Source: a virus. Taken from it: a stretch of 21,966 nt of DNA. Below are positions 836-17,846 of the stretch, piece by piece. Position 1 is the first letter of the stretch. Each line of letters begins with the position of its first letter. A program made the position numbers and the translations under genes. The notes beneath the pieces are model-generated. The model was given only the letters and a program-made list of their open reading frames with translations. It did no database searches and was not told where the DNA came from. Location of the stretch: positions 1 to 21,966 of IMG/VR virus record IMGVR_UViG_3300006919_000533. The stretch is one strand, 5' to 3'.

Positions 836-970
836 TTAACTCCAGATCCAGAGCGCGATCAGTAGCACGTTAAGGAGCGCAGCCCCAACGAACACCATGC
901 CGGCCTCGGCTTCGGTGAGGTGCATAAAGCGAGACTTGCATTGCTTGCCGATAGATTTAATGAAGGTCAT
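836..970 (-). CDS. 44-aa single-TM protein
   Basis: The chosen start is the ATG at 970, with AGGG 8 bases upstream. It overlaps the 3' end of the preceding gene by 14 bp. A longer upstream reading in the same frame would cover most of that gene and is rejected. The N-terminal half is basic (FIKSIGKQCKSRF). The C-terminal half is one membrane segment (GMVFVGAALLNVLLIALWIW), giving a small N-in or N-out inner-membrane protein. Size, charge and place at the end of a virion operon would fit a small lysis-associated protein, but one TM and no recognised motif do not prove a holin. Function unknown. Confidence 0.6.
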   Translation of the reverse strand: MTFIKSIGKQCKSRFMHLTEAEAGMVFVGAALLNVLLIALWIWS

Positions 971-1433
971 ATTGATTACCCTGTGTGGTTGTTGAATTCT
1001 GTAGAGCGGCCTGGGGCACGAAATATGCCGGTCTACCGCCGGCTGGGTCTTTCCAATAACACTCACGCTTAGCTTCTCGAGCATAGATGCCGCCGTGGAA
1101 TCGGTATTGACCATTCCCGCCAGTCAGCAAATAGATGTAACGATCATCAGGATCTCTGTCGTGAACAATCAGATCGTATGAATGTCTGCTCCGGGTTCGT
1201 ACATCACATTCACCGACGTCTGGGGCGCGCATTTGTCCCTTGCCATCCCAGTACACGCCAAGATGTTTGGCTAATGCCATCTCCCCCAGGGCACCCTCTA
1301 TGTGGAGCTGCCAATCATTTTTATTGCCGGCCCCATAAGCTGGGCACGCACCCGTCTTGAGATTTTGTACTTGCCGCTGCACTCCAACCTGGGCCGCAAT
1401 CTGCATCTCGGCCAAGCTCAGCTTAATAATCAT
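957..1433 (-). CDS. Hypothetical protein, possible PD-(D/E)XK-like nuclease fold
   Basis: 158 aa. The start is set by an ATGA overlap with the stop of the preceding gene at 1430-1433; a start six codons further upstream would overlap more. Near residues 45-90 the sequence shows GALGEMALAKHLGV, then APDVGECDVRTR, then SYDLIVHDRDPDD and YIYLLTG. A helix with a conserved Glu followed by D-x(n)-(E/D)xR/K on beta strands is the layout of PD-(D/E)XK nuclease folds. The usual Lys would be replaced by Arg here (DVR), so catalysis is uncertain. This is a fold guess from motif spacing and not a firm family assignment. The gene is translationally coupled inside the small-gene cluster downstream of the giant virion gene. 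Confidence 0.65.
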   Translation of the reverse strand: MIIKLSLAEMQIAAQVGVQRQVQNLKTGACPAYGAGNKNDWQLHIEGALGEMALAKHLGVYWDGKGQMRAPDVGECDVRTRSRHSYDLIVHDRDPDDRYIYLLTGGNGQYRFHGGIYAREAKRECYWKDPAGGRPAYFVPQAALQNSTTTQGNQYDLH

Positions 1434-1897
1434 GCAGTGGAAATAATCCAAACTACGGAATAGATAACGAAGGCGCTGACACCAATACCCACAATGCCGG
1501 CTACAACGTCGAGTAAAAGCCGTCGCCGTCTGCGCTGCCTGTACAGCGTCCGTTCACGGCGCTCCTTGATCTCTCGCCGCATCTGCATCATCTCGCGGTA
1601 GACTTCGGTGCCATACGCCATGCAAATCATTCCGCGTATGGTGGCCTCATGCTCCTTGAGCTTTTGCTTCGCAATCGTGGCGTTCAGCGCCTCTTGCTCT
1701 ACAGACTCCCCCCCGAAGAGCTGCTTAAACAACGGCGGGTTTTCCGCCTCCTGCTCCGCTTGGGTAATGTCTGCGGCAAGTGTGTACCACTGGCCCAACT
1801 TCGTGGCGATCTTCTCGATCTCTGCGCCTCTGGCGACCAGACCCTCGATCCCCTTCACGACGGTTGAGGCCATCGCGAGCATCGATAAAGGATCCAT
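1430..1897 (-). CDS. Hypothetical phage protein with C-terminal membrane segment
   Basis: 155 aa, starting two bases after the stop of the giant gene. The N-terminal 70 residues are helical and include KLGQWYTLAADITQAEQEA. A long charged helix follows (residues about 90-128, rich in Arg/Glu, ending in RQRRRRR). A single hydrophobic segment near the C-terminus (LLLDVVAGIVGIGVSAFVIY, continuing VVWII) completes it. The poly-Arg before the TM would keep the N-terminal domain in the cytoplasm. I recall similar proteins in marine podoviruses, annotated only as hypothetical. Placement after the ejection-type proteins and before a small TM gene could indicate a lysis or membrane-remodelling role, but no spanin or holin motif is seen. 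Confidence 0.8.
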   Translation of the reverse strand: MDPLSMLAMASTVVKGIEGLVARGAEIEKIATKLGQWYTLAADITQAEQEAENPPLFKQLFGGESVEQEALNATIAKQKLKEHEATIRGMICMAYGTEVYREMMQMRREIKERRERTLYRQRRRRRLLLDVVAGIVGIGVSAFVIYSVVWIISTA

Positions 1898-1899
1898 GA

Positions 1900-4800
1900 T
1901 TAGCTACCGTACTTTTCTAGGTGTTCTTGATAGCGCTTGTTGAAGCGATCGATCCGATCGTCCATGCGCTCTCTGATCCTCTCTAGCTGCTCGTCACGCT
2001 CAGCCTCTGTGAGCCTATCGTCATCCCTGACCTTATCCCTGCGATCTCTCTGCTGACGTAGGAACTTCTCTGTGGCCAGCATCTGCGGATAAAGCCGGTG
2101 GATAAAGTTATTAGCCTGGTCGGCGGCAATGCGCTCCTGACCCCGGGCATCTTCGCGCTCTTTCTTGGCGTTGATGATGAGCTGGCGGGTATCGTAGAAA
2201 CGCTCTTGATCCGCATAATCAGAATCGTCACGACCAAACACCTTGCTCAAAAACGGCACTCGAGTGGGATCAACCTCCCGATCTGACGTCACGCGCTCAA
2301 CAGCATCGATGGCACCCATGCCGGCGCGATAGATCCCGCCCAGCCCAAACTCCGTGATGTGCTCGATGACATCCGGGCTAATGTCCGTGCTGATATCAAA
2401 CATGAAGCCCAGGCTTCCACTTCGGTACTCAGAGCCGCCGCCTACCGTATCGTTTAGGAACTGCGCGATCGCAACGTAGGGCTCCTTCGTGCTGTTCCAG
2501 TAGTTATGTGCGGCAGCTCGTTGCGGCCCTGACGGGAAGTTTTCACGCACGATGTCACTGCCGAAGAAGTTTGTATTCGACGCCAGCTCAAACGCAGGAA
2601 CAAAAACCGTTGGTGACGCAGAGATCGCCGCGTTTGCGTGAACCGAGATCGGGGAGAACGCAGTGACGAACGAATTGAACACTTCGCCCAGTGCGTTTTC
2701 TTTGCGCCTGGCAGATCCGTTTTGCATCGCTTCAACAGCGGTGCCGATCGTGTAGAAGAAGTTATACCCGTAGGGCAGAGGGATCTTGAAGTATGCGACT
2801 TCAGACAAAAATCCATCATCCCCGATCTCACCATAGCCGGGCTTCATCAAGATCAGGTTACGCTCACGGATCGCCGGGTTGATCTTGTCGTAGAACGCCT
2901 CGCCATCATCGTCCTCGCCGCCGATTTCACGGTTGAATACTGCGGCCGCATAAGCAACACCAACCAAACCGCCGGCAATCTTCTGGGCCCGATTGAGTTT
3001 GCGCTGCACCTGTACATTGCCTTCGTAATCAAGAGTGATCGGAGACAAAGTATTGGTGAACTGCTTGAGGCCCTGCACCGCGGCATTGAAGAACATATAC
3101 CAAGAGTTAATGTGAGCGCCCGCACTACCCTTCCGGTTGAAATTTACCGTCAAATTTTTGGCTAGTGACGCGGCTTTGGATTTATCTATCCCCGCCTTGC
3201 GAGCCTCGATGTACGCGCTCAGCCTGACGCCATTTTCCACAGCCAGGTTGTAGTCGCTGACAAAATCACCGATCCATTTCGCAGCGGTCTTACCCTTGGC
3301 CAATGCCCCCTCGCCCTGGTTAATACGGGCCGCTAGGCGCTTCTCGAGGACATCGAGATCCGGGGAGTCGAAGTAGCCAGTCTTGGCACCGACATCTAGG
3401 AACTCTTTAAAGTAACGCTCGTACTCAGTATCGCCATCACCGACCTTCTTGTTCCGGACGTAGTTGCGGATAGCGCCGACTGCCCTGGGCGTACCCTTGG
3501 CTACCTTAGCGCCGATCCGCTCGCCTTCGATCAAGCCGCCCTCTTTTGTCTGCTCGCCGGCAACATTGATGAGCGCTGCCTGGATATCTCGAGCGAAGTT
3601 GGTCAGTACAAACGTGGGGTCATACGCGGTGTTGACGCTAGACAGGAACCGGGTGACGCCGCCGACAATCCGTGTGGCCGCGCCCAACTGCTCCGGGCCT
3701 ACGTTCTGCATGGCATTGAGGAGCTTGCGATCTCTGACCTTGATGTAATGCACAACGCCGTCACGCTTCACGCCCAGGTATGCGTCACTGCGCGCCATCT
3801 CCATCTGCGCGGTACGCTTGTTAGCCTTGGGGCCTCTAAGTGCCGCCGGGTCAGGGTTGGCGTCTGTGAACACTTGCCACTGAGATGGATCTGGATTGTT
3901 CTCCACCATCTGCAAGAACGCCTTGCTTACTTCATTCTTGCGATTGCGGATGATCTTCCCGGTCAGGTCAGCAATAACCTGGGCAAGCGGGCCCTGCGCC
4001 CGTGACTTGCGCCCATACGCTCGCTTGGCCTCCTTGCCGCGGATATCAAACCCACGGCCGGTGGGGATCCTGCCACCCTTGGCATCCACTTCGTTGTCTG
4101 CAAACCCACGCAGAGGAACGTAGTTTTCGTAGGTAGCCTCCCAGGAATCAGTAACCTCATCTGCCTGCAAGCCGCTGGCGCGCAACAGATCGCGGGTCAA
4201 CTGTGTCATCTGGTAAACGCGATCCGCCAGATCCTCCATCTGCTGGAGCTTCTCACCCGTGTACTGCCCAAGGATCTCTGCTGCCTCTGCATCCGACATA
4301 CCGGAACCAGGGCCCTCAAACTCTGGGTTGATCTCTCGAATGACCCGGTTACGCTCTGGTGCGTGTTTGGCGTACAGATAATCGTTTAACTGGTCAGAGC
4401 TAACCCCAGCCTCTTTCATGGCCCGGATCAGGGGCTCTACAAATCGCAGCTCTAACTGACGCAGATCCTCTTCGGTCTTGCCGTAGAACAGCTCTTCTGT
4501 CAGGTAGGGATTCTCAGAGACGTCCAGCTCGCGCTCGTTCTCGACCTCGATCGCCTGCTGGGTGCGATATACCGGGAGCATCTTGTCTTGCAGCACTCGC
4601 AAGAACTTGTCCCGTAGACGCTCTTCAGCAGGCTTCTTGGGATAGATGCGGCCATCTGATCCATCCCGGCGGAACATAGGTAGGCCGGTTTCTTTGACGT
4701 TTTCGGCGAGCTCTGGGGTGATTGGATACGCCCAGAAACCATCGCTCGAAACATCGTCGCCAGTCTCGAGCCGGCCACTTTCGTCCATGCTCTGGGCGGG

Positions 4801-7800
4801 CATCCCCATGAGCTTGTCCATCGCCTTCTTGAGCTTGCGGTTATAGATGGCTTCGTAGTCGTAATTCTCGCTCCAGCGATTCTGAACGCGATCGCCCTTG
4901 GAGAAAGCAATGCCGGTTTTCCGCTCTGTAATCGCCTCACGCAACATGATCTTGGCGACAAGATCCAGGTACTTGTCATCGCGGAAGGGAGATTCTGGTG
5001 GTGCGGATTTAAGGGCGCGGCCTTTCTTCTCCATATTGTTCACCCGGGACATAAGCTCCCGGTATCGAGCGTCGTTCTCGGCAAACTCCTGAGCCATTGT
5101 CCGCAATTCTGCCACCTCCGGGGTGATGTCTTGCGTAGCCCTGGAATTCAGCTCCTCATCTCGCAAAGGATCGTAGCCAGTGAGCTCCTTGCTGTTTATG
5201 CGGAAATCAAAAATTTGTATGAAATTGTCTCTAAGTAGCTTCTCAACCGCAGCGGGCTCTTGCACCTTGATGTCGATAGTCCAGTATTTCTGAGCGATAG
5301 GAGACTCGACCATGACCTTCATTATCTCGGAAACCGTCGATTCCCTCGTCAAACCCCTATTCCCACCAGTGCCGATATACCGCTTGCCGCCTTCTTTGCT
5401 GTTGTAAACGATCGCGGCCATCTCCCATATGCCGGCATCTGTCAGCTTGGGTGCTACATCAGTGAGGAACTTGCCCAGATTGGAGACGTTACCCAGGAAC
5501 TCAGTGGTCTTGCGTGTGCCTGGTATTCCCTCTATGCGCGCGCCATACGCCATCAGCATTTCGCTGTTTTTTGTGTTGGCAGCGGCCTCCTCTATCCGGA
5601 GATCCTGGGCTTCCGCTAATAGTTGGTCGCCTTTTACCGGGTCATAGGTGCCGCCGGCCCTGCGTATCGCTGAGTGCCAGTCAGACTGGGTTTCCTCAAT
5701 CGCCAAGGTATCGCCAAACTCAGTGGTGCGATCAGTAGCCAGGACATGGAAAAGCATATTTTCCACATTGAAGTGACCACCGTGGTAGGTACTGTCTGAA
5801 AGCCGGTTATCCTCGAGCGATACAACGACTTCGCGGTAGTCATTGATGTCAGACGGTGCGATCTTTAAGTAGTCAAAGTATTGGGTGTCGCCCTCCGGCG
5901 CACCAATTAAACCGTTGTCCTCTGCGTAAAGCTGGAACTGCACCCGCGCTTCATCGATGTCGTAGATTGCCTGTCTCTCTGCGAAACGGTTTCCAGCGGA
6001 GTCTCTGAGTATGTACCCAGTGTCATCGTTGCCGATGATATCCCCGATGACATCATCATCAGCGTTGTAAACGCTGTATCGATAGTAGGGATCGTCTAGG
6101 TATCGCTGCTCCGCGAGCTCCACAATCGTGTCATCGACCAGGTTTTCTCCGTATGCGTCAACGAGCCTCTGCGGCAGGACATCATTTTCGGTTTCGGATA
6201 CATAAGTCTCAAAGATGTCGAATGAGAGCGCTGAGTCGACTACCTCCATGCTCATGTTCGGGAAGTCAACCGAGGCCATGTTCTTCATTATGTCCTTGTC
6301 GTAGTCGTACAGCGCGGTAACAAGGTCTGCTAATGAGAAATTATCGGTACCGTCTGCCCCGTTATCGAAGATATCGGTTCGCATATCATCGATGATGTGC
6401 TGGTAGTTTTCTTGATCGTCGAGGATTTCGCCATCTGTTATGCCGATTAGTCGGTCATTTTCACTCTCGATGCCACTCCTAACGTCAGCCCTCAGATCCG
6501 GGGCGTTGTCTCGCAGGATCTGAATCACCTCGTCCCGGGTGAAGCTCTGCACAGAGCCCAGGTCTACTAGCTCAGCCTCAAGGTCGACATAGGTGGCCTC
6601 TTCCTTTTTCAGCCCTCTAGCCTTCAAGAAGCTAAGGATCTGGTCGCCCTTAACGCGACCCTCTGGGTTTTTCTTGGACGGCTTAAATATCTTGTCGCCC
6701 TGATCCAGCAGGATTTGCTCAGCATTGCTGTACAGACCCAGATCGGTCTGCCGGGCCCGGGCCTGCTCCGCAACGATGCTAAATGCGGGCTCACCATTAC
6801 CTTTGGCTGTCTCGCTACGGAGGCCATTCTCCCTGGCTTTCTTGGCGATATAGGTAATGTCGCTGACGCGCATATTTGCCAGCGTCATCAGGCCGTTTTT
6901 GCGTAACCAGTTTCGGATAGCGCCGATCACCTCACGGACACGATCCTGGAAAGTCTTAGATCCACGCTCGCCAACATAGGCCAGCATCTCATTAACTAAA
7001 ATTTCGTTACGGACTGTCTCGGATACAGCATCTTCACGCGCAAGACCCTCTCGGTATGGCGCAATCTGGCGCTCAATACCCAGATCCTTAGCCATCTTGT
7101 TGAAGCCCTTGGCACCGCCCATGGCAACGTACATCCGGTTCATTGCCCGGCGAACACCCTCATCTGCGTACATCGCGTTGATGCCCACATGGGTGCCTTC
7201 GTGCAGCAGGGTTCGCTCCATGCGAGCCTTACTTCTCATGCGGCCACGGACAATGTAGATTTGCCCCCTATGGGTAACAGCATCTACATCAGAGCCATCA
7301 GATCCTTGCTTGCGCGCTGCAATCCGCAAAGGCTCTGGAAGGTCAGCGAAGCTATCGACAGCGACGATGCGGGCACGGGCTTCCGGGTTATCACCGACGA
7401 TCCGATCAATGACCGTATCGAATTCTTCGTCAGTAATGACCGGGCGCGGAGTAGCGCCTCGATTGATCCCTAGCTCACGATCTCTGCGGAACAAACCACC
7501 CTGATTGCCATCAGTCTGCGTCGGATCGTTTGTGCCGGCGATGGTGCCCTGTCCAGAATCTAGGTCGAACAGCTCGCGCTCACGATCGATCTGAGCCCGG
7601 CGCTCTCCAGCCTCCGTATCAACGGCCGATCGATCTTGCAAATCCTGCTCTGTATAGCTTTCAAGCAGAGGCGCTTCAGTCTTGCCAGAAAACTCCGCAG
7701 GGGACACTGGATCGCTTCGGCCATCTGCCATACCATCAAAGCGCTCTCTCAAGCGCATATCAGCCTGTTCGTAATCGAGGTCGATGTAGTAGTCATCATC

Positions 7801-10800
7801 GATGATCGAAAAGATGTCATCCTCTGTCATACCGTAGTTAGAGACGGCATCCTCGATCACACTTTTGTTCATCATGTCGAAGCGGTTTTGTGCAGACATA
7901 ACCGGGTGGTCGATCTGGTTGTTCGCATCAAAAAAGGCGTAAGAGAAGCCCTCTTGCGTCTCGCTTCTTGCATTCTTAGTAGCCAGGGACTTGCCGCCAT
8001 ACTTCTGGTGCATCTTGGAGCCGGCGGTGGGCTCTGTTGGCGCAATCGGCAAATCAGCGTTGAAGCGACCCCACAGCAAGGTTTTCTTGGTGTAGTCCTC
8101 ACCCAAGTGATAAGGGTCGAATGACAGTCTCCAGTCAGGCAGGCCGGTCATTCTCTGGATGCGGCCGACTGGATTTTCGATAGCCCATATCTGAGGCTTG
8201 AAAAACTCGATGGTGGCTAGGGTCTGCTGGACAAGCTGCACACTGGCGTAAGTGCGCCCATCTTCATCCTTGGCCGCAAAGTGCCGCGCACCACTGCTTG
8301 CGAAATCCGTGCAGGGGCAGGCAGCAAGCACTGCGTAAACCTCTTTCCCGTCGAACGCATTGAAGTTATCAACGAAGAACTGGGTGTCAAAGTTATTGAT
8401 ATCCCCCATGAACTCGTCATCTTGGATATCGAAGGTGTAGACGTCATATCCCGCCTCCGCCCATGGGCGCGACCACGATCCCGTGAGATCAAAGAGAGAC
8501 AGCACCACTTTGTTGCCGTTGATCCTGCGCTTCTCTGGGTCAATCCCCTGGTCGATGGCGTTTCTTTTCCAGCCGGCGATCGTTGTTTCAGCCTGAGACT
8601 TGCTCATGTAGCCCGACTCAGAAACATAGTTGTCGACCTTGTTTTTCAGTCGCACCACATCTTCGTTGGCAGGGCCCTCGAACACACGGGTGACTTGCTC
8701 GCCATCCCGGTACATCTCCTGCTGGTATGCGTTGAACGCATCCACCATTGCGTCCAGCTCTGGCTTGCCTACGCCGCGATCTGCGCCTCTGTGCTCCGGG
8801 GCTTCGCTTGGCTGTTTTGGCTCTCCGCGCTCTGGCGGTAACTCCATTACCTCGAGCTGATCCCCTGGCGGCGGCTGTATGCCTTCCGCTGCGGGCAGGG
8901 TTTCGGCCTGCTCAGCACCCGTAAAGCGATCCCAGTTGAACGGGGCCCATCGGATGATTGCGTCTGACACAGACTTGGGAAGTTTCGTGATGTCATCAGT
9001 GTTGAGGCGACGAGCTTCCTGCCGGCCTTCTCCGACACCAAAGGCGCGAGCGGCTTCTATGTTGGCGCTCTGCCCGGACTCCACCCGGTATGAGGCAACG
9101 TCCTCGAGCATCCTGCGGCGATCCTCTTGGGTGGCGTTACTCCACCACTGGGTTACTTGATCCCGGTTTTCCTCCAGCCATGATTGAATCTGCTCATCTT
9201 CAGACGCCCTGGCTTGCTCTTGCTGGGCGGAGGCGGCGTCTCTAGTGGCCTCATCTCGGTCGCGCTGCGCTTGCGTTTCTGGCGTGAACTCCGGGATATT
9301 CGTCATCCCTGCCCGATTCAGCACGTTGTAGATAGAGAACAGGTTAGTGTTTGTCTGCTGGGGGCTAATCTTTCGATCGCCAGATCGGCGGAGCGCATCG
9401 GCATAGCGTGCGATGGTGTCCGGGCTCAACCCGTTATCTCGCACTAACGCTTGTTCCGCAGACTCAAAGCTGTCGTATTGGTTCATTAACGCCCCGGCTT
9501 CGCGGAACGTAATGATGCGATCGATCTTATCCTGGCGATTGCCTACCGTTCGTAGGCCGGCTTCTTGTAGTAGATTGGTAAGGTCTTGGGTTTTGACGTT
9601 AGCGAGGCGCTTGGTAAGTCGTTCTTTCTCTGCGCTGAAATCGAAAACGGGGCCTTGTGGCCCCGTCTGCGGTGTTACTGATTGTCGCCCTTGCGGCGGG
9701 CCATCACTTTGGCGAAGCTCTCTATCGCGGCTTGCCTCACCTCTGGGCTCAAGCTGCGGCTGGATCTCACTTCCTCGATCTCCTCCGGGGATAACATTGT
9801 CCCGAGCCGGAGCAATCTCTGCCTCCGCACTTCGCGCAGCTCTTCCTGTGTCAGCCCTGCCATAGACTTCATCATACATCTCCTCATATAGCTGTGCGAT
9901 CAATACTTCATCTTCTGGAGTAATCTGCTGATCGGTCTGCTTTAACTCAAAAAGCGCCTGCTCAACCGTGTCCAAACGCCTCTGCGCTTCTTGGATCTCC
10001 GCGCTTTTTCCGCTGTTGAGGAAGTAAAGCTGACCATCTGCATTAGCTCTCAAGGCTTCTGAAACAATTTCCAGCGCTTGATTAGCTGTTTGCACCCCAT
10101 CATCATAAGTTGCTGACTCTGCGGCCGATCTAATAAAACCGTTTTCAGCCAAAAACTCCGCCACGCCATCCATGTCCATGCCGCCTTGCCGTCGGAACAA
10201 AGATAGCCGGCCGCGGCCAGGGTTATCTGCTGTATCCAAGCCCTCATATCGCGCCGCCTCGATACTAATCCCGCCACCCTTTGCGATTGCGGTCAGCACA
10301 TCATCATCAGTTGAGACTGCAGTTCCCGTTCTGCGCGTCTGTAGATCGCTCAAACGATCCGCTATGGCATCTAATTCATTGAATAGGGGCTGGGTATCCC
10401 CTGCCTCATATGCTTCCGTCAGAGCGTTAAAATCGCGCTCTACTGGCTCTAGCGCGGCTTCTCTTTCGATCTCTAGTCGGGATCGCTCCCCAGGGCGTCC
10501 AATCTCCCCTTCTGGGTCTACCTCGAAGTCAGTCGGGGGCTGATAAGCGATCTGCCGACCCTCTGCAATTTGACGCGGCGTTAGAGCGCCAATGCCACGC
10601 AGCGCCTGTATAGACTCATCAATGCGGGGCAACAACTCACCTTCAAGGACATTGACGTATGAGAACGCCTGGCGAGCGCCAGATTCTTGATTAATGGCAT
10701 CACCCACCTCCCGGAGAATGTTCTCAACCATCTCGCCTTGACCGGCGACTCGCTCAGATTCGGGTAAGGCTTGGAGCTCACGGGCACTGCGGATTCGGCT

Positions 10801-12222
10801 CTGCAGCGCTCGTAGTTTTACGGAGTCATCCTCTAGCGCATTGGCGGTCGCCTCGTCGCCATCGCTCAAGGCTCGGCGCTGATCTCTGGCATTAAGCACG
10901 ACGGCACGGTTAATGCTCCGATTAGCCAAATCCAAGGTATCGAGGGGGTCGAATGGAGTAGGGGTAAGGAGAGGATCGAACTGGGTAGCCTGGAGAGGCG
11001 CGTCCGTGGGGATGGTGGTTTCTTCTGGGCTAAGGGTGACGGGCTCAACGCGGCCCTGATTGATACCAAATCTCTCTCGCAGAGCTTCAACATCGGACTG
11101 ATTGCCCTGCATTTCGATTGTGGTCTGCCCGGTGGAGCTGTTGATCGTGTCGACAGTAGAAACTTGGGCGGCTTCCTGGGCGGCTCTGGCAGACTGATCC
11201 AGGGAGTCTCCCCCCTCTGCTCGAGCCTGATTGGCACCACGTTCCGCGGCCTCGGCAATCCTGTTTGTAGGGCTCAGACCGCCTACTGCTCCACCCATCA
11301 AGCCGCCTAAAAGACCACCTTGTGCAGCGGCCTGACCTACGCCTTCTGTAAGGCTCCGTGACGGGTCTAAAGGCTGAATGTTAAGGTTGGCTATGGCCTG
11401 ACCGCCGCCCTCTTCTACGGCCTCCTGTAGCGCCTCAGAGATGAATCCACGACCAAGGTTTCCAATGCGGGTTGTGTTATCTGCAACGCCACCAACCAAG
11501 GTTTTCTCAATCGTGCTTGGCAATACGCCGGCAGTGACTGTAGACAGCGCGCCAACAGCCAAGGCAGTGTTCCTGGCCCCCTCGAGTGCCAACTCCTTGC
11601 GCGCTTCCTCCGGGCCAATCTCCGCGCTTCGCACTCGGTACGCATCGTTTCTTTGCAGGACATCTTCCGGCAACTGCATGACATCGGAGTACATACCTCC
11701 GGCGATATCGCCTGCGTTTAGGCCGGCACCAGAAAGGATGCCTGCTGCCTGCCCTGCGCGAACAGCTCCAGTGGCCCCGCGAACTGCCAAGCCAGCGCCA
11801 CCAGAAGCTACAAGCGGTGCAATCTGCTGAGTGAGAAAGGAAAAGGTTAGGGAAGGATCTGTGATCGTGCCGACAATCGCTCTGCCGGCCTTGTCTAGCT
11901 CGTCAGCGCCACCGTCAACGTACTGCTGGAACTCTCTCTGCCGGCGCTTCTGATCCTCTGTTTGGAGATCCTCATAGAACCTGGTTGTCTCACCCCCAAG
12001 CCGGGTGACGGCGTTATCCATATTCCCGGATGCAAGCCCGTACAGGGTGCCAATAGACGAGACAAGATTTCCCGTGCCGATACCAAAATCTGAGACAAAT
12101 CCTTGGCCAAAAAACTCGTCATCTTCCTCGCGTAGCGGATCGATATTGGTAAGTCGACTCGTCAGGTAGCTCGAATTGCCGGTTCTCAGGCGCGAGGTTA
12201 GGTAATCGGATTTTCCCGACAT
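1900..12222 (-). CDS. Giant polyvalent (multi-domain) virion protein
   Basis: 3440 aa from the ATG at 12222, with GGGGA 8 nt upstream; a TTG 15 bases earlier is possible but weaker. Regions in order: a Gly/Ala-rich, partly hydrophobic N-terminus (about 100-330); an LPD-like segment (about 635-735); a SAP-like helix pair (about 860-905); a C5-cytosine methyltransferase-like domain (about 1230-1435; LFDLTGSW, Pro-Cys at 1303-1304, Glu1349 in IENPVG); a zincin-type peptidase (HEGTH at 1674-1678, possible third ligand Glu1745 in NEMLAY); a module with EETQSDWH (about 2176-2183) closing with PITPELAENVKETGLPMF; an LPD38-like region (about 2530-3310); and a charged coiled-coil tail. Known family biology: such polyvalent proteins are thought to enter the host with phage DNA and protect or establish it. 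Ejection and self-processing are inferences. N4-type RNA polymerase motifs are not seen. Confidence 0.93.
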   Translation of the reverse strand: MSGKSDYLTSRLRTGNSSYLTSRLTNIDPLREEDDEFFGQGFVSDFGIGTGNLVSSIGTLYGLASGNMDNAVTRLGGETTRFYEDLQTEDQKRRQREFQQYVDGGADELDKAGRAIVGTITDPSLTFSFLTQQIAPLVASGGAGLAVRGATGAVRAGQAAGILSGAGLNAGDIAGGMYSDVMQLPEDVLQRNDAYRVRSAEIGPEEARKELALEGARNTALAVGALSTVTAGVLPSTIEKTLVGGVADNTTRIGNLGRGFISEALQEAVEEGGGQAIANLNIQPLDPSRSLTEGVGQAAAQGGLLGGLMGGAVGGLSPTNRIAEAAERGANQARAEGGDSLDQSARAAQEAAQVSTVDTINSSTGQTTIEMQGNQSDVEALRERFGINQGRVEPVTLSPEETTIPTDAPLQATQFDPLLTPTPFDPLDTLDLANRSINRAVVLNARDQRRALSDGDEATANALEDDSVKLRALQSRIRSARELQALPESERVAGQGEMVENILREVGDAINQESGARQAFSYVNVLEGELLPRIDESIQALRGIGALTPRQIAEGRQIAYQPPTDFEVDPEGEIGRPGERSRLEIEREAALEPVERDFNALTEAYEAGDTQPLFNELDAIADRLSDLQTRRTGTAVSTDDDVLTAIAKGGGISIEAARYEGLDTADNPGRGRLSLFRRQGGMDMDGVAEFLAENGFIRSAAESATYDDGVQTANQALEIVSEALRANADGQLYFLNSGKSAEIQEAQRRLDTVEQALFELKQTDQQITPEDEVLIAQLYEEMYDEVYGRADTGRAARSAEAEIAPARDNVIPGGDRGSEIQPQLEPRGEASRDRELRQSDGPPQGRQSVTPQTGPQGPVFDFSAEKERLTKRLANVKTQDLTNLLQEAGLRTVGNRQDKIDRIITFREAGALMNQYDSFESAEQALVRDNGLSPDTIARYADALRRSGDRKISPQQTNTNLFSIYNVLNRAGMTNIPEFTPETQAQRDRDEATRDAASAQQEQARASEDEQIQSWLEENRDQVTQWWSNATQEDRRRMLEDVASYRVESGQSANIEAARAFGVGEGRQEARRLNTDDITKLPKSVSDAIIRWAPFNWDRFTGAEQAETLPAAEGIQPPPGDQLEVMELPPERGEPKQPSEAPEHRGADRGVGKPELDAMVDAFNAYQQEMYRDGEQVTRVFEGPANEDVVRLKNKVDNYVSESGYMSKSQAETTIAGWKRNAIDQGIDPEKRRINGNKVVLSLFDLTGSWSRPWAEAGYDVYTFDIQDDEFMGDINNFDTQFFVDNFNAFDGKEVYAVLAACPCTDFASSGARHFAAKDEDGRTYASVQLVQQTLATIEFFKPQIWAIENPVGRIQRMTGLPDWRLSFDPYHLGEDYTKKTLLWGRFNADLPIAPTEPTAGSKMHQKYGGKSLATKNARSETQEGFSYAFFDANNQIDHPVMSAQNRFDMMNKSVIEDAVSNYGMTEDDIFSIIDDDYYIDLDYEQADMRLRERFDGMADGRSDPVSPAEFSGKTEAPLLESYTEQDLQDRSAVDTEAGERRAQIDRERELFDLDSGQGTIAGTNDPTQTDGNQGGLFRRDRELGINRGATPRPVITDEEFDTVIDRIVGDNPEARARIVAVDSFADLPEPLRIAARKQGSDGSDVDAVTHRGQIYIVRGRMRSKARMERTLLHEGTHVGINAMYADEGVRRAMNRMYVAMGGAKGFNKMAKDLGIERQIAPYREGLAREDAVSETVRNEILVNEMLAYVGERGSKTFQDRVREVIGAIRNWLRKNGLMTLANMRVSDITYIAKKARENGLRSETAKGNGEPAFSIVAEQARARQTDLGLYSNAEQILLDQGDKIFKPSKKNPEGRVKGDQILSFLKARGLKKEEATYVDLEAELVDLGSVQSFTRDEVIQILRDNAPDLRADVRSGIESENDRLIGITDGEILDDQENYQHIIDDMRTDIFDNGADGTDNFSLADLVTALYDYDKDIMKNMASVDFPNMSMEVVDSALSFDIFETYVSETENDVLPQRLVDAYGENLVDDTIVELAEQRYLDDPYYRYSVYNADDDVIGDIIGNDDTGYILRDSAGNRFAERQAIYDIDEARVQFQLYAEDNGLIGAPEGDTQYFDYLKIAPSDINDYREVVVSLEDNRLSDSTYHGGHFNVENMLFHVLATDRTTEFGDTLAIEETQSDWHSAIRRAGGTYDPVKGDQLLAEAQDLRIEEAAANTKNSEMLMAYGARIEGIPGTRKTTEFLGNVSNLGKFLTDVAPKLTDAGIWEMAAIVYNSKEGGKRYIGTGGNRGLTRESTVSEIMKVMVESPIAQKYWTIDIKVQEPAAVEKLLRDNFIQIFDFRINSKELTGYDPLRDEELNSRATQDITPEVAELRTMAQEFAENDARYRELMSRVNNMEKKGRALKSAPPESPFRDDKYLDLVAKIMLREAITERKTGIAFSKGDRVQNRWSENYDYEAIYNRKLKKAMDKLMGMPAQSMDESGRLETGDDVSSDGFWAYPITPELAENVKETGLPMFRRDGSDGRIYPKKPAEERLRDKFLRVLQDKMLPVYRTQQAIEVENERELDVSENPYLTEELFYGKTEEDLRQLELRFVEPLIRAMKEAGVSSDQLNDYLYAKHAPERNRVIREINPEFEGPGSGMSDAEAAEILGQYTGEKLQQMEDLADRVYQMTQLTRDLLRASGLQADEVTDSWEATYENYVPLRGFADNEVDAKGGRIPTGRGFDIRGKEAKRAYGRKSRAQGPLAQVIADLTGKIIRNRKNEVSKAFLQMVENNPDPSQWQVFTDANPDPAALRGPKANKRTAQMEMARSDAYLGVKRDGVVHYIKVRDRKLLNAMQNVGPEQLGAATRIVGGVTRFLSSVNTAYDPTFVLTNFARDIQAALINVAGEQTKEGGLIEGERIGAKVAKGTPRAVGAIRNYVRNKKVGDGDTEYERYFKEFLDVGAKTGYFDSPDLDVLEKRLAARINQGEGALAKGKTAAKWIGDFVSDYNLAVENGVRLSAYIEARKAGIDKSKAASLAKNLTVNFNRKGSAGAHINSWYMFFNAAVQGLKQFTNTLSPITLDYEGNVQVQRKLNRAQKIAGGLVGVAYAAAVFNREIGGEDDDGEAFYDKINPAIRERNLILMKPGYGEIGDDGFLSEVAYFKIPLPYGYNFFYTIGTAVEAMQNGSARRKENALGEVFNSFVTAFSPISVHANAAISASPTVFVPAFELASNTNFFGSDIVRENFPSGPQRAAAHNYWNSTKEPYVAIAQFLNDTVGGGSEYRSGSLGFMFDISTDISPDVIEHITEFGLGGIYRAGMGAIDAVERVTSDREVDPTRVPFLSKVFGRDDSDYADQERFYDTRQLIINAKKEREDARGQERIAADQANNFIHRLYPQMLATEKFLRQQRDRRDKVRDDDRLTEAERDEQLERIRERMDDRIDRFNKRYQEHLEKYGS
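7189..7203 (-). other. HEGTH zinc-site codons of the metallopeptidase domain
   Basis: Codons for H-E-G-T-H at residues 1674-1678 of the giant protein, preceded by RMERTLL and followed by VGINAMYADE. This is the HExxH zinc-binding helix of gluzincin-like peptidases. A Glu in NEMLAY 67 residues later (6976-6993) is a candidate third ligand. All residues expected for activity are present. Confidence 0.75.
7905..8540 (-). other. C5-cytosine DNA methyltransferase-like domain of the giant protein
   Basis: The segment has VVLSLFDLTGSWSRPW (motif I, SAM binding), YTFDIQ (motif II), LAACPCTDFASSGARHF (motif IV with the catalytic Pro-Cys), IENPVGR (motif VI) and a KKTLLWGRFN block. A GFSYAFFDAN end follows. 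It resembles compact stand-alone phage C5-methyltransferase-like proteins that lack a large target-recognition domain. The catalytic Cys (codon 8311-8313) and motif VI Glu are present, so it is probably active. Confidence 0.75.
9647..9666 (-). terminator. GC-rich hairpin inside the giant gene
   Basis: A perfect 8-bp stem, ACGGGGCC / GGCCCCGT, with an ACAA tetraloop, followed on the - strand by TTTCGATTTC. It begins 8 bases after the stop of the nested reading frame at 9675-9872. Its form is that of an intrinsic terminator with a weak T-tract. Within the giant frame it encodes TGPQGPVF. If it terminated efficiently the giant mRNA would be cut short, so it is either weak, regulated, or a relic. 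Confidence 0.4.
9675..9872 (-). CDS. Candidate nested gene (65 aa) in another frame of the giant gene
   Basis: A GAGGAG ribosome-binding site (9880-9885) stands 7 nt before the ATG at 9872 (a second ATG at 9875 is 4 nt away). The 65-aa product is highly charged and helical (LTQEELREVRRQRLLRLG, then MLSPEEIEEVRSS, LSPEVRQAAIESFAKVMARR). It looks like an ordinary small phage protein. The giant frame across the same bases gives a disordered linker rich in Gly, Arg, Asp and Pro and uses more of CGA, AGA, GGA and AGT. A hairpin lies just after the stop. It could be a real overlapping gene or a relic overprinted into the giant protein; function unknown. Confidence 0.4.
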   Translation of the reverse strand: MKSMAGLTQEELREVRRQRLLRLGTMLSPEEIEEVRSSRSLSPEVRQAAIESFAKVMARRKGDNQ

Positions 12223-12235
12223 AAAACTTTTCCCC

Positions 12236-12260
12236 AAAAAAAATGGGGCCGAAGCCCCAT
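12236..12260 (-). terminator. Intrinsic terminator before the giant gene
   Basis: On the - strand, ATGGGGC and GCCCCAT form a 7-bp stem closed by the extra-stable TTCG tetraloop (C-UUCG-G) and followed by eight Ts. It starts 16 bases after the stop of the 233-aa gene, and its T-tract runs directly into the GGGGA ribosome-binding site of the giant gene. It should end most transcription of the upstream virion genes and limit readthrough into the giant gene, or protect the 3' end of the upstream mRNA. Confidence 0.88.
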
Positions 12261-12276
12261 GGAATACTGAATTGCC

Positions 12277-12978
12277 TTAGCGCTGGTACAGACGGTCGTA
12301 GTAGTCGCCGTAATCGTCCCGGTAGAATTTCCTGAGCTGTTCTAGCGTGGCTCCTGAGTAGGTGACTCCATCTATCTCTACGGAATCCGGGCCTATCCCA
12401 TCATCACCAAACAGCGCACGGCCATCTGCCATAATCTGCTCTGGAGTGGGCAGATCAGAGGTAGTCTCACGGCCCAGTCGCATCCGAGACTCTTCATACG
12501 CCTGATTAAACTGATCAGTAGCGCGCTCCAATCGATCCCAAACCGCCTCGTTGTCTCCGCGCTGCGTAATGCCCAGCCTTGACGCCTCTGCTTGTGCGTT
12601 TTCAAGTGCCCGCAGAGTTGGCGTCAAAAGGGGATCCACCGTAGCAAGCTGGCCCAGATCAACCATCTTTCCAGACCGCGTTATGCCCTTCAGATTGCCC
12701 TCATCATCCAATTGGGTGGAGGTGACATAGCCAGCTTCGGTATTTCTCACGGTGTCCTGGTATGCCCGCTCGTCTTTCAGTAAGCCTTTCTGGAACTCGC
12801 GCTGAGATGCAGTGTCAGCAAGCTGATCCGCCCTGGAGCGCGCATAATTCTTGTCCGCAATCGCCTGTAGCCGGGCCTCGCGATCCTTCTCAATCTGGAC
12901 GTTGAACATCGTGTTGGCAAACTGAGATATCCCCGCGCCCAATCCGCCAAGCGCACCAAGCAATCCTCTACTGGCCAT
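12277..12978 (-). CDS. Putative internal virion / ejection-type protein, 233 aa
   Basis: The ATG at 12978 comes one base after the preceding stop and has GGGAG 7 nt upstream. An upstream ATG giving eight more residues overlaps the previous gene and is less likely. The N-terminus ASRGLLGALGGLGAGISQFA is a glycine-zipper-like hydrophobic stretch. A long charged helical region follows (residues about 25-90), then a mixed C-terminus rich in Tyr and Asp. It is not assigned to a named family. A glycine-rich membrane-active N-terminus followed by coiled coil, between other structural genes, fits a minor ejection protein. It is the last gene before the strong terminator. Confidence 0.82.
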   Translation of the reverse strand: MASRGLLGALGGLGAGISQFANTMFNVQIEKDREARLQAIADKNYARSRADQLADTASQREFQKGLLKDERAYQDTVRNTEAGYVTSTQLDDEGNLKGITRSGKMVDLGQLATVDPLLTPTLRALENAQAEASRLGITQRGDNEAVWDRLERATDQFNQAYEESRMRLGRETTSDLPTPEQIMADGRALFGDDGIGPDSVEIDGVTYSGATLEQLRKFYRDDYGDYYDRLYQR

Positions 12979-12979
12979 A

Positions 12980-13516
12980 TCAGGCTCCCATTTCTTTTTC
13001 ACCTACCGGGACATCTTCATCCGGCAGTGAATCACCATAATCATCTGGCAAGGCTTCAGCTTCGCTTGCCAGCTCTGCGTCATCTACTTGAACCATCGCT
13101 TCCTTCAAGCTGGCCACTTCATCTGGAGACAATCCCTGCTCTTGAGCAAACATAATCACCATTTCTTTAAACGCAGATGAAACATCAGCACCGGATACTT
13201 GAACCCCCGACGCATCTGCAATCGTGAATACTTCGTTCAGCGCCATCATTCCCAGGATAGAAAGATTCTCTTCCTTGATGTCGCCATCTGTTTCAGCGTC
13301 TGATGTTTCTGCCAGCTTCAAAGCCGCCATGGCCATTAGCTTGGGCTGAGCTCTTTCAGACCTAGAAATAACTTTTGCAATTTCCTCAGACAAATCTTCG
13401 GAGTACAGCTTTTTGCCCATGTAATTGATTGCTGACTCCAGCGCGGGATCGTCAAGAGCAGGAACTCCCCCCTCTGCCTGCATAGGAGCCGCTTCATTTT
13501 GCAGTAGTCCCGCCAT
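12980..13516 (-). CDS. Acidic helical protein, 178 aa, unknown function
   Basis: The start overlaps the previous stop by one base (TAATG). The protein is acidic and mostly helical, with runs such as LSEEIAKVISRSERAQPKLM and SSAFKEMVIMFAQEQGLSPD and an Asp/Glu-rich tail. There are no membrane segments, Cys pairs or catalytic motifs. An acidic, soluble protein lying between a basic membrane-active protein and another ejection-type protein could be a chaperone or scaffold for them, but this is only suggested by charge and position. Confidence 0.8.
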   Translation of the reverse strand: MAGLLQNEAAPMQAEGGVPALDDPALESAINYMGKKLYSEDLSEEIAKVISRSERAQPKLMAMAALKLAETSDAETDGDIKEENLSILGMMALNEVFTIADASGVQVSGADVSSAFKEMVIMFAQEQGLSPDEVASLKEAMVQVDDAELASEAEALPDDYGDSLPDEDVPVGEKEMGA

Positions 13517-14442
13517 TAGCCTTTCCCTCCGTACAGCACAGCATTTCCGTATTGGTCATATTGCAACGCACTCGATCTATAAGGGTTCGGCACCTCGTAC
13601 CGCCCTGTCTCTGGGTTATAAACCGGGGTCTGAATAATCCCGCCTATATTTGCCTGATACCTAGCTAACGCCTCTTCCTCCGCATCCTCCTGCGCTTTCG
13701 CAGCGGCGTAACCTTGAAGCATTTGGCCACCAACCATCACTGTGCCAAATTGACCAGCAGGGCCTAGCGCGTTCCAGCCTTTGCCAATCCCGGCAGCGGC
13801 ACGGCCCAGTAGTCCGGGGTTTACGGCAGGAGCAAGAGAGGCCGCAGTAGTGGCACCTCCAACTCCGCCTACAGCGCCAGGAGCGGCCGCATTAAGGCCG
13901 GTAGCCTGACCCGCACCAACTGCATTGCCCAGAGAACTAAAGCCCGAGGGGGCTGTTGTAGAGGCTCCTGTTAAATAATTACCAGTAGTCGCCGCTCCAG
14001 CGCCGGCACCAGCACCGGCACCGCCCGTTGCTGTTGTGACGCCCGCGCCAGGCGCTGTATACGCCGGAGTCGCTGTAGCAATCGGGGCAAGACTTGACGC
14101 TACCGTACCCGCCCCAGCGCCATAAGCCCCAGTAAAACCGCCCGCTAAAGAGCTACCAGCTCCAGCGATATTTCCAGATGCCAACGCAGCGCCTGCACCC
14201 GTGATGCCTCCCCAAGCTGATGCCACACCGGCTTTCGCGCCGGCTATAAACCCCGCTCCGCCGGTCGCCCCTCCGATGCCGCCCAAAAGGGCAGCACCTC
14301 CGAAATAAACAGCAGCCGCAATCGCAACAATCTTTAAAAATTTACTTGACTTGACCGCCTTCCAGACCTTCTTGACGCCTTTTACAACGCCCTTCACGAC
14401 CTTCTTGATGACCTTGCCGACCTTCTTTACTACCTTGCTCAT
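13516..14442 (-). CDS. Cationic, Gly/Ala-rich putative ejection (pore) protein, 308 aa
   Basis: The start at 14442 is fixed by an ATGA overlap with the acetyltransferase stop; an eight-codon longer reading is rejected. Residues 1-33 are a Lys/Val amphipathic helix (VVKKVGKVIKKVVKGVVKG and onward). A membrane-like segment follows (FLKIVAIAAAVYFGGAALLG). About 200 residues of Gly/Ala/Thr-rich low complexity come next, then a short C-terminus with YQANIGGIIQTPVYNPETG. The amphipathic cationic helix plus hydrophobic helix suggests membrane insertion, as expected of proteins that extend a short-tailed phage's channel through the envelope. That role is inferred; no named family is recognised. Confidence 0.82.
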   Translation of the reverse strand: MSKVVKKVGKVIKKVVKGVVKGVKKVWKAVKSSKFLKIVAIAAAVYFGGAALLGGIGGATGGAGFIAGAKAGVASAWGGITGAGAALASGNIAGAGSSLAGGFTGAYGAGAGTVASSLAPIATATPAYTAPGAGVTTATGGAGAGAGAGAATTGNYLTGASTTAPSGFSSLGNAVGAGQATGLNAAAPGAVGGVGGATTAASLAPAVNPGLLGRAAAGIGKGWNALGPAGQFGTVMVGGQMLQGYAAAKAQEDAEEEALARYQANIGGIIQTPVYNPETGRYEVPNPYRSSALQYDQYGNAVLYGGKG

Positions 14443-14879
14443 GTTTGACCTCGCACATAGGTGCAATTCATAGAAATACGGGAAAAGCCGATCCGGCTAA
14501 GAAACTTTAATAGCCTGGGATCGGACTCTGGCTCTAGCTCGATTACGGCGACTTTGATGACCGGGCGAGATTTCACCCACTTGCCGAATTGACGCAGGAG
14601 TTTGACTCCTTCGCCGGGTACTCTGGTGTAATACAGCATCACACTGCACTGCTGGCGTTCATACCAGAATGACCGCTCCGCCATTGCCCCCACGGCGGCG
14701 ACTACCTCACCGTCTATTTCTGACACCCAGACAAAATGGCGGTTGCCAGAGATCGCCTCCGTGGCTGTCTCTGCCATAGAGTCTCTGCAAATTCTGACTG
14801 GGAGGGGGTTTTGGCTTACTGACTCTACTGCTAAGTCGACAATAGCTGGCACATCCGCCAGCGTGGCTTCTCTAATCAC
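14439..14879 (-). CDS. GNAT-family N-acetyltransferase
   Basis: 146 aa with a GTG start at 14877-14879 and no strong ribosome-binding site. It begins like GNAT enzymes (IREATLADVPAIVDLAVES). A central strand pair follows (HFVWVSEIDGEVVAAVGAM), then a helix and strand (KVAVIELEPES) and the C-terminal LLKFLSRIGFSRI, typical of the last GNAT helix and strand. The usual acetyl-CoA loop (Q/RxxGxG/A) is only weakly matched, by VPGEGVKLLRQFGK. It would acetylate an amine; the substrate is unknown. GNAT genes inside podovirus virion operons are known, and modification of a virion or host protein is plausible. It overlaps the next gene by 4 bp. Confidence 0.82.
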   Translation of the reverse strand: MIREATLADVPAIVDLAVESVSQNPLPVRICRDSMAETATEAISGNRHFVWVSEIDGEVVAAVGAMAERSFWYERQQCSVMLYYTRVPGEGVKLLRQFGKWVKSRPVIKVAVIELEPESDPRLLKFLSRIGFSRISMNCTYVRGQT

Positions 14880-14901: not shown

Positions 14902-17319
14902 TTACGCTTCATCAGTGGTGGTGCTGCCGCCATCATCTCCGCCATAATCTCCGCCACCACCTCCGCCGCCACCACCTCCGCCGCCATCATTTCCGCCGCC
15001 ATCATTTCCGCCGCCATCATTTCCGCCGCCATCATTTCCGCCGCCATCATCTCCGCCGTCATCAATGGGCATAATTCGAATCGGGTTGTCCATTCGATCT
15101 GTAATGTTTTGCATCAATCCTGGCATTTCCAAAGCCAGATTCATTACGTTCTGAGCAGCAAAACTTTTTTGTGTCAAGGTTAGATTGGGGTCAGCGTAAA
15201 TTGCGGCAATGCTATCCATAGTTGAGTACATAACCGTAGATGCCGCCTGCGCGTTGACCGCATATTTTTTAAACTCACGATCCAGCGCATTTTGAGTTGC
15301 GTTCCATTCGTTCTGGTTGCTCTGTAAATAAGACTCAAAATTTCTCTGTTTCTGCGCTTCCATAGACTGGAAAGCGTGCTGAGTTGCAAGTTGAGTCGCC
15401 TGGAACGACTGTGCGTTATTCTGATACGCCAACTGGAAGTCCCTGTCGAGTTGAGCCTGGGTGCCGGAAAACGCAAGCTGAGTCTCTTGCAGCGCTTTCT
15501 CTGCGGCAATCTTTGCGGCAGCGATCGACTCGTTAGACGCAAGCTGCGAATTCTGCAAGGTTGTTTGCAGAGCACGATCTAGCTGGTTTTGATCTCCAGT
15601 CCAGGTTAATTGCTCGTTCTGCAGTTGCTGCTTCAGCGCCCTGTCGAGCGCATTTTGGTCACCAGTAAATGCAAAATTGCTTTCCTGCAAGGCAGTCTGC
15701 AAGGCGCGATCCAGCGCCGACTCTTGCGACGTTAAATCTCGATCAAGCTGGTTTTGTTCACCAGTAAAGGCGAATTGATTCTGCTGCAAGGAAGATTGCA
15801 AATCTCGATCAAACTGGTTTTGTTCACCAGTAAAGGCGAATTGATTTTTCTGCAAGACAGATTGCAATTCTCGATCCAGCGCGTTCTCGCCACTGGTGAA
15901 GTCAAACTCATTCTGCTGCAGATACTTCCTCAACTCACGGTCAGCTTCATTTTGCTCTGCAGTAAAGAGCTGCTGGTCATCTTGGAGCAGGCGTTGCGCC
16001 TCTCGATTCAAGAACGACTGAATTGCGGTATTAGCCGCATCAGCATTAAACGCACCGGCCTGGTTAATTGACTCCGCATTGAATCTGTTGGTCACATTTC
16101 CTTCACCAACATTAAACATGCTTACGTTGGTGCCTAAAGACGCATCCTGCAGTGAAGCTCTGTTTGCAGCTTCTACGCTCTGAGCATCAGCGCCGGCATA
16201 AGTAGCGGCATCCTGCTCCGCAATTCTGGTGGCCGCATCAATTACTGCCTGCTCACTTGCCTGGGCCGCAATAGATGAATTCAACAGGCCGCGTTGATTG
16301 GCGTACTGCATACCCCGGGTTCTTGCGCTCTGCAATAACGGAGAATTTCTGTTAAGGATCTGGTTCAGTTGATACTGAACAGTTTGTTGTGGAGTTACTT
16401 GGCGCTCAGTGACGTTGGCCTGCTGGGCATCCGCCACTCCAGATTCTGCGGCCAAAGCCGGATCATAGGTAGCGACCTCTTCTGCAGCTTGCGAAGCAGA
16501 AGTTTGACTCCCAGTTTCTACGTCGGACTGCACGGTGGGTGCTATTTGATTAGCGTTCGCCGCAGCGGCGGCTTGCTCTGCAAGTTTCTGCTGAGCAATA
16601 GCCTGCGCTTCGGGCGAGTTCTGGATGCCTGCCAGAATCTCCTCGAGCGGCTGTCCTCCCCTAGCGGCGGTAACAAAAGAATTTATTTCTTCACCAGTAG
16701 GCGATCTTCCCAAAAACTGAGAGTAAGCTATGCCAACCTCAGATATGACTCTGTTGCCGAATTCTGGCGACTGGCGGATGTTGTAATTTAGATCATCGAT
16801 GCTTTTTCCTTTCAACAAATCATTACGCCAGTAATCCAAGCCAGCCTGACGGGCTTCTCTGCCTAGCAATCCTTGAAACGCATCCTGCACGCGCTGGTTA
16901 GCCACCCCATACGCCTCGTCGCTTCCAGCAAGGTTATATCTGAGATCGTCCAGAGTTGCGCCACTATTTAGCCCTTGCTGCCAATAATCAAGCCCAGCCT
17001 GCGCTGCATCTCTCCCAACGTATTGCTGAAACAGGGAGTTAATATCACTGGAGTAATCCCGGGGCCCAGGGAAGGAATCAGCAACAACGCCTGGCATGAC
17101 CTCGGGGGGATCGACAACCGGCATTGGTGTATGGCCGCCAGTTTGAGGAGCCACCGGCTTGACTTCAGGGGGATCGACAACCGGCAATGGAGTGTTTCCA
17201 CCAGTTGGTGGAGCCATAGGGCGCGCCCCACCAGTTTGCGGCACCATTTGATCCGGCTGCATTTTCTTCAGGCGCTTGCGCTCCTCCTCCGTCATAGAGG
17301 ACATAGTAGTAGTAGGCAT
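14902..17319 (-). CDS. DUF4214 and coiled-repeat structural protein, 805 aa
   Basis: The ATG at 17319 lies 5 bases after the previous stop. Residues 1-65 are Pro-rich with two near-identical units containing PVVDPPEV. Residues about 68-240 hold DUF4214-like repeats (GRDAAQAGLDYWQQGL, then GREARQAGLDYWRNDL). A helical region follows. About residues 440-690 carry a 22-aa repeat (QNQFAFTGEQNQLDRDLQ type). The C-terminal 60 residues are Gly/Asp-rich with five tandem GGGND-type units. DUF4214 is often seen in large secreted adhesin/RTX-type proteins. The position between fibre chaperone and ejection-type genes suggests a virion component, perhaps a tail or ejection protein with an elongated coiled shaft. 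The exact role is unknown. Confidence 0.88.
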   Translation of the reverse strand: MPTTTMSSMTEEERKRLKKMQPDQMVPQTGGARPMAPPTGGNTPLPVVDPPEVKPVAPQTGGHTPMPVVDPPEVMPGVVADSFPGPRDYSSDINSLFQQYVGRDAAQAGLDYWQQGLNSGATLDDLRYNLAGSDEAYGVANQRVQDAFQGLLGREARQAGLDYWRNDLLKGKSIDDLNYNIRQSPEFGNRVISEVGIAYSQFLGRSPTGEEINSFVTAARGGQPLEEILAGIQNSPEAQAIAQQKLAEQAAAAANANQIAPTVQSDVETGSQTSASQAAEEVATYDPALAAESGVADAQQANVTERQVTPQQTVQYQLNQILNRNSPLLQSARTRGMQYANQRGLLNSSIAAQASEQAVIDAATRIAEQDAATYAGADAQSVEAANRASLQDASLGTNVSMFNVGEGNVTNRFNAESINQAGAFNADAANTAIQSFLNREAQRLLQDDQQLFTAEQNEADRELRKYLQQNEFDFTSGENALDRELQSVLQKNQFAFTGEQNQFDRDLQSSLQQNQFAFTGEQNQLDRDLTSQESALDRALQTALQESNFAFTGDQNALDRALKQQLQNEQLTWTGDQNQLDRALQTTLQNSQLASNESIAAAKIAAEKALQETQLAFSGTQAQLDRDFQLAYQNNAQSFQATQLATQHAFQSMEAQKQRNFESYLQSNQNEWNATQNALDREFKKYAVNAQAASTVMYSTMDSIAAIYADPNLTLTQKSFAAQNVMNLALEMPGLMQNITDRMDNPIRIMPIDDGGDDGGGNDGGGNDGGGNDGGGNDGGGGGGGGGGGGDYGGDDGGSTTTDEA
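14986..15060 (-). repeat. 15-bp minisatellite encoding GGGND
   Basis: Four perfect tandem copies of atcatttccgccgcc (14986-15045) and a fifth degenerate copy (15046-15060). Less regular Gly-rich units extend toward 14935. Translated on the - strand they give repeated Gly-Gly-Gly-Asn-Asp in the C-terminal tail of the 805-aa protein. The period is a multiple of three, so copy changes keep the frame. Confidence 0.9.
15748..15879 (-). repeat. 66-bp tandem repeat in the 805-aa protein gene
   Basis: Two adjacent 66-bp units. A 33-bp block beginning ctggttttgttcaccag is identical at 15748-15780 and 15814-15846. Each unit encodes 22 aa (LDRDLQ...QNQFAFTGEQNQ). More diverged copies extend on both sides, from about 15270 to 15990. 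Recent duplication is indicated by the exact identity. Confidence 0.85.
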
Positions 17320-17837: not shown

Positions 17838-17846
17838 TACAAAGCC

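Follow-up and report, generated by a model that had tools for sequence, protein, structure and literature searches.

Polyvalent proteins, as PMC5512222 describes them, are giant multidomain products of genes that lie beside virion genes, and they combine zincin and LPD domains with a DNA methylase, in most cases an adenine enzyme resembling EcoKI or TaqI. P1 DarB is a large virion-packaged adenine methylase-helicase that is implicated in protection from restriction, and the first 30 residues at its N terminus are enough to target it to the capsid (PMC9024508). The DarB model in PMC5512222 treats the SWI2/SNF2 motor as strictly required. The DarB-like giants of Bcep22-type phages, such as BcepIL02 gp70 and JC1 gp69, possess an adenine methylase together with an SNF2 helicase, are encoded among late genes and have a C-terminal LPD38 domain. 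JC1 gp69, a protein of 4515 aa, was present in CsCl-purified virions, where it was represented by 51 unique peptides (PMC9144972).

The protein described here shares the multidomain organization, the location beside virion genes and the combination of zincin, LPD and DNA methylase domains, and judged from its sequence by testable criteria it is a phage polyvalent protein. Its methylase, however, is of the C5 type. The gene lies on an incomplete linear IMG/VR contig of 21,966 bases, referred to as the window, and a megablast of the whole contig against phages gave no match. A frame scan found an uninterrupted minus-strand frame that runs from a TTG at 12237 to 1900 and comprises 3445 codons (3445 aa); residue numbers refer to this frame. 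The ATG at 12222, which has GGGG about a dozen nt upstream, gives the single 3440-aa reading frame claimed in the sequence-only reading, and that frame is real, as chance could hardly leave 10.3 kb open. A collinear homologue with 78-83% protein identity is found in a sister phage, L002. Since the contig is incomplete, the share of nearly half of the window that was noted for the gene does not amount to half of a genome.

The gene is surrounded by late genes, which Pfam and PHROGs assign to tail fibre, tail-fibre assembly and DUF4214 proteins (Table 1), and the second of the two small genes that follow it (164 aa) matches phrog_18407. The earlier label of ejection-type proteins for the neighbours is plausible in the case of the 316-, 178- and 241-aa genes. 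The late gene run also includes an acetyltransferase-family gene, alongside a giant which itself bears a predicted GNAT-fold module. The tail-fibre-assembly-type genes at 17325-17837 and 21642-21965 (minus strand) have near-identical C-terminal ends, a duplication that flanks the tail-fibre genes, and the 805-aa protein terminates in a Gly/Asp/Asn-rich low-complexity repeat (DGGGNDGGGN..., 14902-15050, minus strand). The sister phage carries tyrosine integrase, RecE-like, Sak-like and DnaB-type genes at 19381-27234 of its sequence, and is therefore probably temperate.

Table 1. Features of the window and of the giant protein (percentages are identities to related phages L002 and L008)
Feature	Position	Strand	Residues and remarks
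Small gene pair following the giant (155 aa, 164 aa)	957..1897	-	81-85% identity in L002
Giant polyvalent protein gene	1900..12222	-	3440 aa from ATG 12222
C-terminal module	1906..4629	-	residues 2537-3444; common to Bcep22-type, Stx-type and Vibrio podophage giants
LPD38 domain	2248..2892	-	residues 3116-3330
EEIQSDW module	4633..6702	-	residues 1846-2535; EETQSDWH at 5674-5697
Zincin-type metallopeptidase	6826..7365	-	residues 1625-1804; HEGTH at 7189-7203, third ligand E1750
Long-form C5-type DNA methylase	7738..8850	-	residues 1130-1500
SAP-like element	9502..9594	-	residues 882-912; weak match, E 0.2
N-terminal domain	11146..12090	-	residues 50-364; common to DarB-like giants
N-terminal twin tag	12151..12219	-	residues 7-29, SGKSDYLTSRL / TGNSSYLTSRL
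Strong intrinsic-terminator-like hairpin	12243..12260	-	ATGGGGC-TTCG-GCCCCAT then T8; directly precedes the giant's start codon
241-aa protein	12277..13002	-	syntenic in L002 (60%) and L008 (30%)
178-aa protein	12980..13516	-	syntenic in L002 and L008 (51-53%)
316-aa Gly/Ala-rich protein	13516..14466	-	syntenic in L002 (51%)
146-aa acetyltransferase-family protein	14439..14879	-	phrog_1249; 71-86% identity in L008 and L002
805-aa DUF4214 protein, virion-type	14902..17319	-	
Tail-fibre assembly chaperone and tail-fibre genes	17325..21637	-	

The scaffold of the protein is that of known giants. HMMs show that BcepIL02 gp70 is homologous to it in the N-terminal domain (E 1e-54), the zincin (E 3e-38) and the C-terminal module (E 1e-113), and its late gene location and C-terminal LPD38 domain are those of the Bcep22-type giants. 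Residues 2537-3439 match PHROG giant-protein families (E 9e-191), and the LPD38-like region scores above the Pfam cut-off (E 1.1e-32). The N-terminal part gives weaker PHROG matches to DarB-like and N4 virion RNA polymerase families; Pfam found no T7-like RNA polymerase domain in the giant, and phrog_2206 covers its N-terminal part only (profile 173-557 of 3406). The giants of 933W-like Stx phages and of Vibrio podophages are about 38% identical to the studied giant over the C-terminal 900 residues, whereas their middle part is unlike its own; the Vibrio giant matches the N-terminal and zincin HMMs as well, and a C5-type methylase was not found there. Residues 1480-2579 and 6-1146 gave no tblastn match to phage records at 1e-5, which means that profiles are required for both stretches. 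When solved structures were searched by sequence, neither the whole protein nor the methylase, zincin and EEIQSDW profiles gave a meaningful match.

Where the Bcep22-type giants have an adenine methylase and a helicase, this protein has a C5-type methylase instead. Eco57I, SNF2 and Helicase_C had no Pfam match at E 1 or better in the studied contig, whereas L012 and L013 do match these families. Because the methylase-helicase dyad is absent, the protein is not filed as a DarB, and none of the five HMMs from this analysis matches P1 DarB. The five-module fusion described from the sequence alone is borne out by profiles for four modules, the methylase, zincin, EEIQSDW module and LPD38, while the SAP-like element stands at E 0.2, a value also obtained with the corresponding segment of L014.

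The two enzyme assignments on which that description turned, methylase and peptidase, are both supported by profile searches. The C5-methyltransferase-like domain matches phrog_757 over residues 1240-1454 (E 1.5e-42). PF00145 matches all eight aligned members of the methylase family, the best at 2.5e-8; on the studied methylase alone it gives E 0.0013 and 18.7 bits, below the Pfam cut-off of 22, and the L012 methylase scores above that cut-off. Behind an N-terminal extension, the domain contains motif I (FDLTG, 1249), the catalytic Pro-Cys of motif IV (PCTDF, 1308, with Cys1309), the Glu-Asn of motif VI (ENPVG, 1354, with E1354) and TKKT at 1383. A target-recognition domain was not found between motifs VIII and IX, which are separated by only 33-42 residues, and it is missing throughout the long-form subfamily; for this reason the enzyme is called C5-type and is not filed as a canonical C5 member.

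This methylase recurs within at least 72 distinct giant ORFs, 37 of which are complete and measure 1796-5237 aa (the viral scan took the best 80 of 537). Pseudomonas phage 8P, for which a literature search found no paper, encodes one of these giants as a 5145-aa 'structural protein', and various others additionally carry InPase, ART, RadC, ddrB-ParB or DarB-type methylase-helicase domains. Such recurrence bears on the main rival explanation, in which the methylase acts in the producing cell, as a late protein that modifies progeny DNA still to be packaged, and any copies in the virion have a structural role. The placement of the gene among late virion genes would suit that explanation, as would the small stand-alone relatives of the methylase, which are ordinary phage genes (plain phage methylases are about 190-250 aa and have neither the N-terminal extension of roughly 100 residues nor the C-terminal tail that the fused form possesses). 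Modification of progeny DNA leaves unexplained, however, why the methylase is found inside so many giants, some with a virion-type scaffold, and we regard it as unlikely.

The methylase also behaves as a cassette. The giant of the sister phage shares 78% identity in residues 1-447 and 83% in residues 1525-3445, its middle part is different, and no methylase was found within 27.5 kb of that phage. Because the sister phage keeps the scaffold without the methylase, the cassette is swappable; in L014, a segment that resembles the one before the studied methylase sits behind the methylase. That a close relative lives without the enzyme could also mean that the main task of the giant is structural or lies in ejection and that its enzyme-like domains are decaying passengers, a reading to which the occurrence of HEXXXH in place of HEXXH in some zincin relatives could be added, though HEXXXH is regarded as functional in PMC5512222. 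Decay is nevertheless difficult to reconcile with catalytic Cys and Glu motifs that, like motif I, are at least 90% conserved among 89 long-form methylase rows, fused and long plasmid forms together, or with the zinc ligands. The claimed zinc peptidase stands as a family, with H1679-E-x-x-H1683 and the distal E1750 invariant in 13 aligned relatives, and the passenger explanation is improbable.

Among the main classes in plasmid leading regions are orphan methylases, which are enriched there (PMC11541004). Plasmids, most of them from Pseudomonas and Acinetobacter, carry the long form of the methylase as genes of about 350-435 aa. The orphan 'DNA cytosine methyltransferases' of pAtCFBP6625c, pP33-1, pGRT1 and pPC9 belong to this long-form subfamily and are 53-62% identical, but they are single, unfused genes whereas the studied methylase is built into a giant. 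Long-form single genes (including L287-L292) are present on many plasmids, some of which bear resistance genes; a megablast of the giant's gene against plasmids gave no match. A tree made by a quick method, with moderate support, places the fused and long plasmid methylases in one group, within which the plasmid genes branch off at several points. The exceptions are a long-branch row (L157) inside the group and, outside it, the separately fused giant of L280 (6005-20662), whose methylase falls among the short stand-alone enzymes and apparently represents an independent fusion. In the two cases inspected, pAtCFBP6625c and pP33-1, the methylase gene adjoins ssb, parA, parB and mobC. One methylase subfamily links phage virions, in which the fused form would be carried, and plasmids. 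Given the intact motifs and the presence of the same subfamily on plasmids, the proposal that the giant methylates incoming phage DNA is plausible. C5-type enzymes without a target-recognition domain can act on RNA, as in the Dnmt2 family, and since C5 specificity is predicted here from motifs and profiles only, the target might be a host nucleic acid (RNA, or DNA modified to alter expression) and not phage DNA, but the plasmid relatives lie beside ssb and partition genes, a DNA-entry context, and this last alternative is very improbable.

The EEIQSDW-type module had been named and left unexplained in the sequence-only reading. Residues 1846-2480 are matched (E 4e-27) by an HMM derived from 21 further loci, and the module, which Pfam does not name, is present in at least 120 viral contigs; a literature search for the motif found no paper. 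According to structure models, it adopts a GNAT fold into which a large helical segment is inserted. The model of the studied module has a confident core, and among the structures that resemble it, coiled coils aside, are the GNAT toxins AtaT, KacT and GmvT as well as an acetyltransferase, SpNatD (Z 7.8-8.6). The model of a compact homologue from L035 is better (pLDDT 87), and each of the 50 matches listed for it is a GNAT or GNAT-like domain (Z 6.7-9.3); with Foldseek alone the module had no match at an E below 0.1. Of 52 members, 7 have the complete acetyl-CoA motif [RQ]xxGx[GA], which the studied giant lacks, and 50 have [RQK]xxG. As the canonical motif is mostly incomplete, the fold alone is claimed for this module and not an activity. 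Together with the methylase, the zincin and LPD38, the module places several unrelated enzyme-type domains in one polypeptide.

Many methylase giants carry, within the first 75 residues, a short peptide in two or three copies whose sequence is phage-specific (L008, L012, L209, L227, L235, L236, L240, L242, L244, L261, L004 and others). A repeat score of 35 is reached by 35% of 62 non-redundant giant N-termini, compared with 2% of 1130 control windows drawn from the same giant proteins, an enrichment with a p of 1e-12 that overstates independence because the proteins are related. Some EEIQSDW giants outside the recovered set of methylase carriers have the repeat too. In 22 giants, identical residues of the copies differ in codon at 91 of 190 degenerate sites, or 0.48 compared with the 0.54 expected at random from independent codon choice between copies, and in the studied giant at 7 of 8 identical degenerate positions. 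A recent DNA duplication is thereby ruled out as the origin of the repeat, and the near-saturated synonymous differences mean that it is maintained at the protein level. A search for the tag in other virion proteins or neighbour genes of the same phage, covering 23 loci, gave no support, and no N-terminal repeat was found in P1 DarB or BcepIL02 gp70. These data suggest that the twin tag is a selected virion-loading signal, for which it is a candidate. A loading signal is a reasonable reading of the tag since the capsid-targeting sequence of P1 DarB, which has no repeat, lies at the same end of the protein.

The terminator-like hairpin that precedes the giant is found in three related phages, the studied contig, L002 (8370-8430) and L008 (3640-3675). 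Transcription of the giant would need read-through of this hairpin inside the late gene run, which would perhaps set a low dose of the protein. A terminator before the start codon was rejected as a general trait of giants, as it precedes only 3 of 68, compared with 4 of 2040 control windows.

The evidence at the level of sequence consists of the architecture, the intact motifs, the recurrence, the swapping of cassettes and a scaffold common to giants with a homologue among virion proteins. From it we infer virion presence, injection, enzymatic activity, self-cleavage and anti-restriction, and we give an even chance to the reading that the giant is a virion-borne anti-restriction effector which is processed by its own zincin. 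The protein would be synthesised late, loaded into the virion by way of its N-terminal region (with the twin tag as a candidate signal) and the common scaffold, and ejected into the next cell together with phage DNA. For the earlier claim of delivery with the genome, homology is what speaks, in the form of the BcepIL02 gp70 scaffold and the presence of the JC1 giant in virions (PMC9144972), and packaging and injection are extended from there to this phage. After ejection or in the virion the zincin would probably cleave the giant itself and release its parts. Self-processing is likelier than cleavage of host proteins, which had also been proposed and finds no support in this analysis, because of the precedent of P1 DdrB (reviewed in PMC5512222). 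The N4 virion RNA polymerase counts against self-processing, as it has a zincin-type domain yet is packaged uncleaved, according to that review. The C5-type methylase would modify phage DNA so that host restriction fails, replacing the adenine methylase and helicase of DarB-like giants, and acetylation of a protein, from either host or phage, may be the task of the GNAT-fold module. The studied giant probably works like DarB-type giants, although its lack of the SWI2/SNF2 motor is a point against the anti-restriction reading.

Injected polyvalent giants are known, and it is the cytosine-methylase version and the repeated N-terminal tag that appear to be undescribed. In the main text of PMC5512222 the word 'cytosine' occurs in a reference only, and no description of the EEIQSDW module or of a terminal twin tag was found in the sections covered. 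A broader proposal, put forward tentatively as possible rather than probable, is that long-form C5-type methylases act at DNA entry both for phages, as virion-carried proteins, and for plasmids, as single genes, and so would form a cytosine counterpart of the DarB strategy, while the giants would be addressed to their own virion by an N-terminal peptide whose sequence is phage-specific and whose repetition is under selection, a loading code. The sister phage and the studied phage, without and with the cassette, form a natural comparison, and the GNAT fold is a testable hypothesis for a module that has had no name. If the tag is a loading signal, it would help to explain how very large proteins are selected for packaging. 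Anti-restriction by injected protein would extend from adenine methylase-helicases to cytosine-type methylases.
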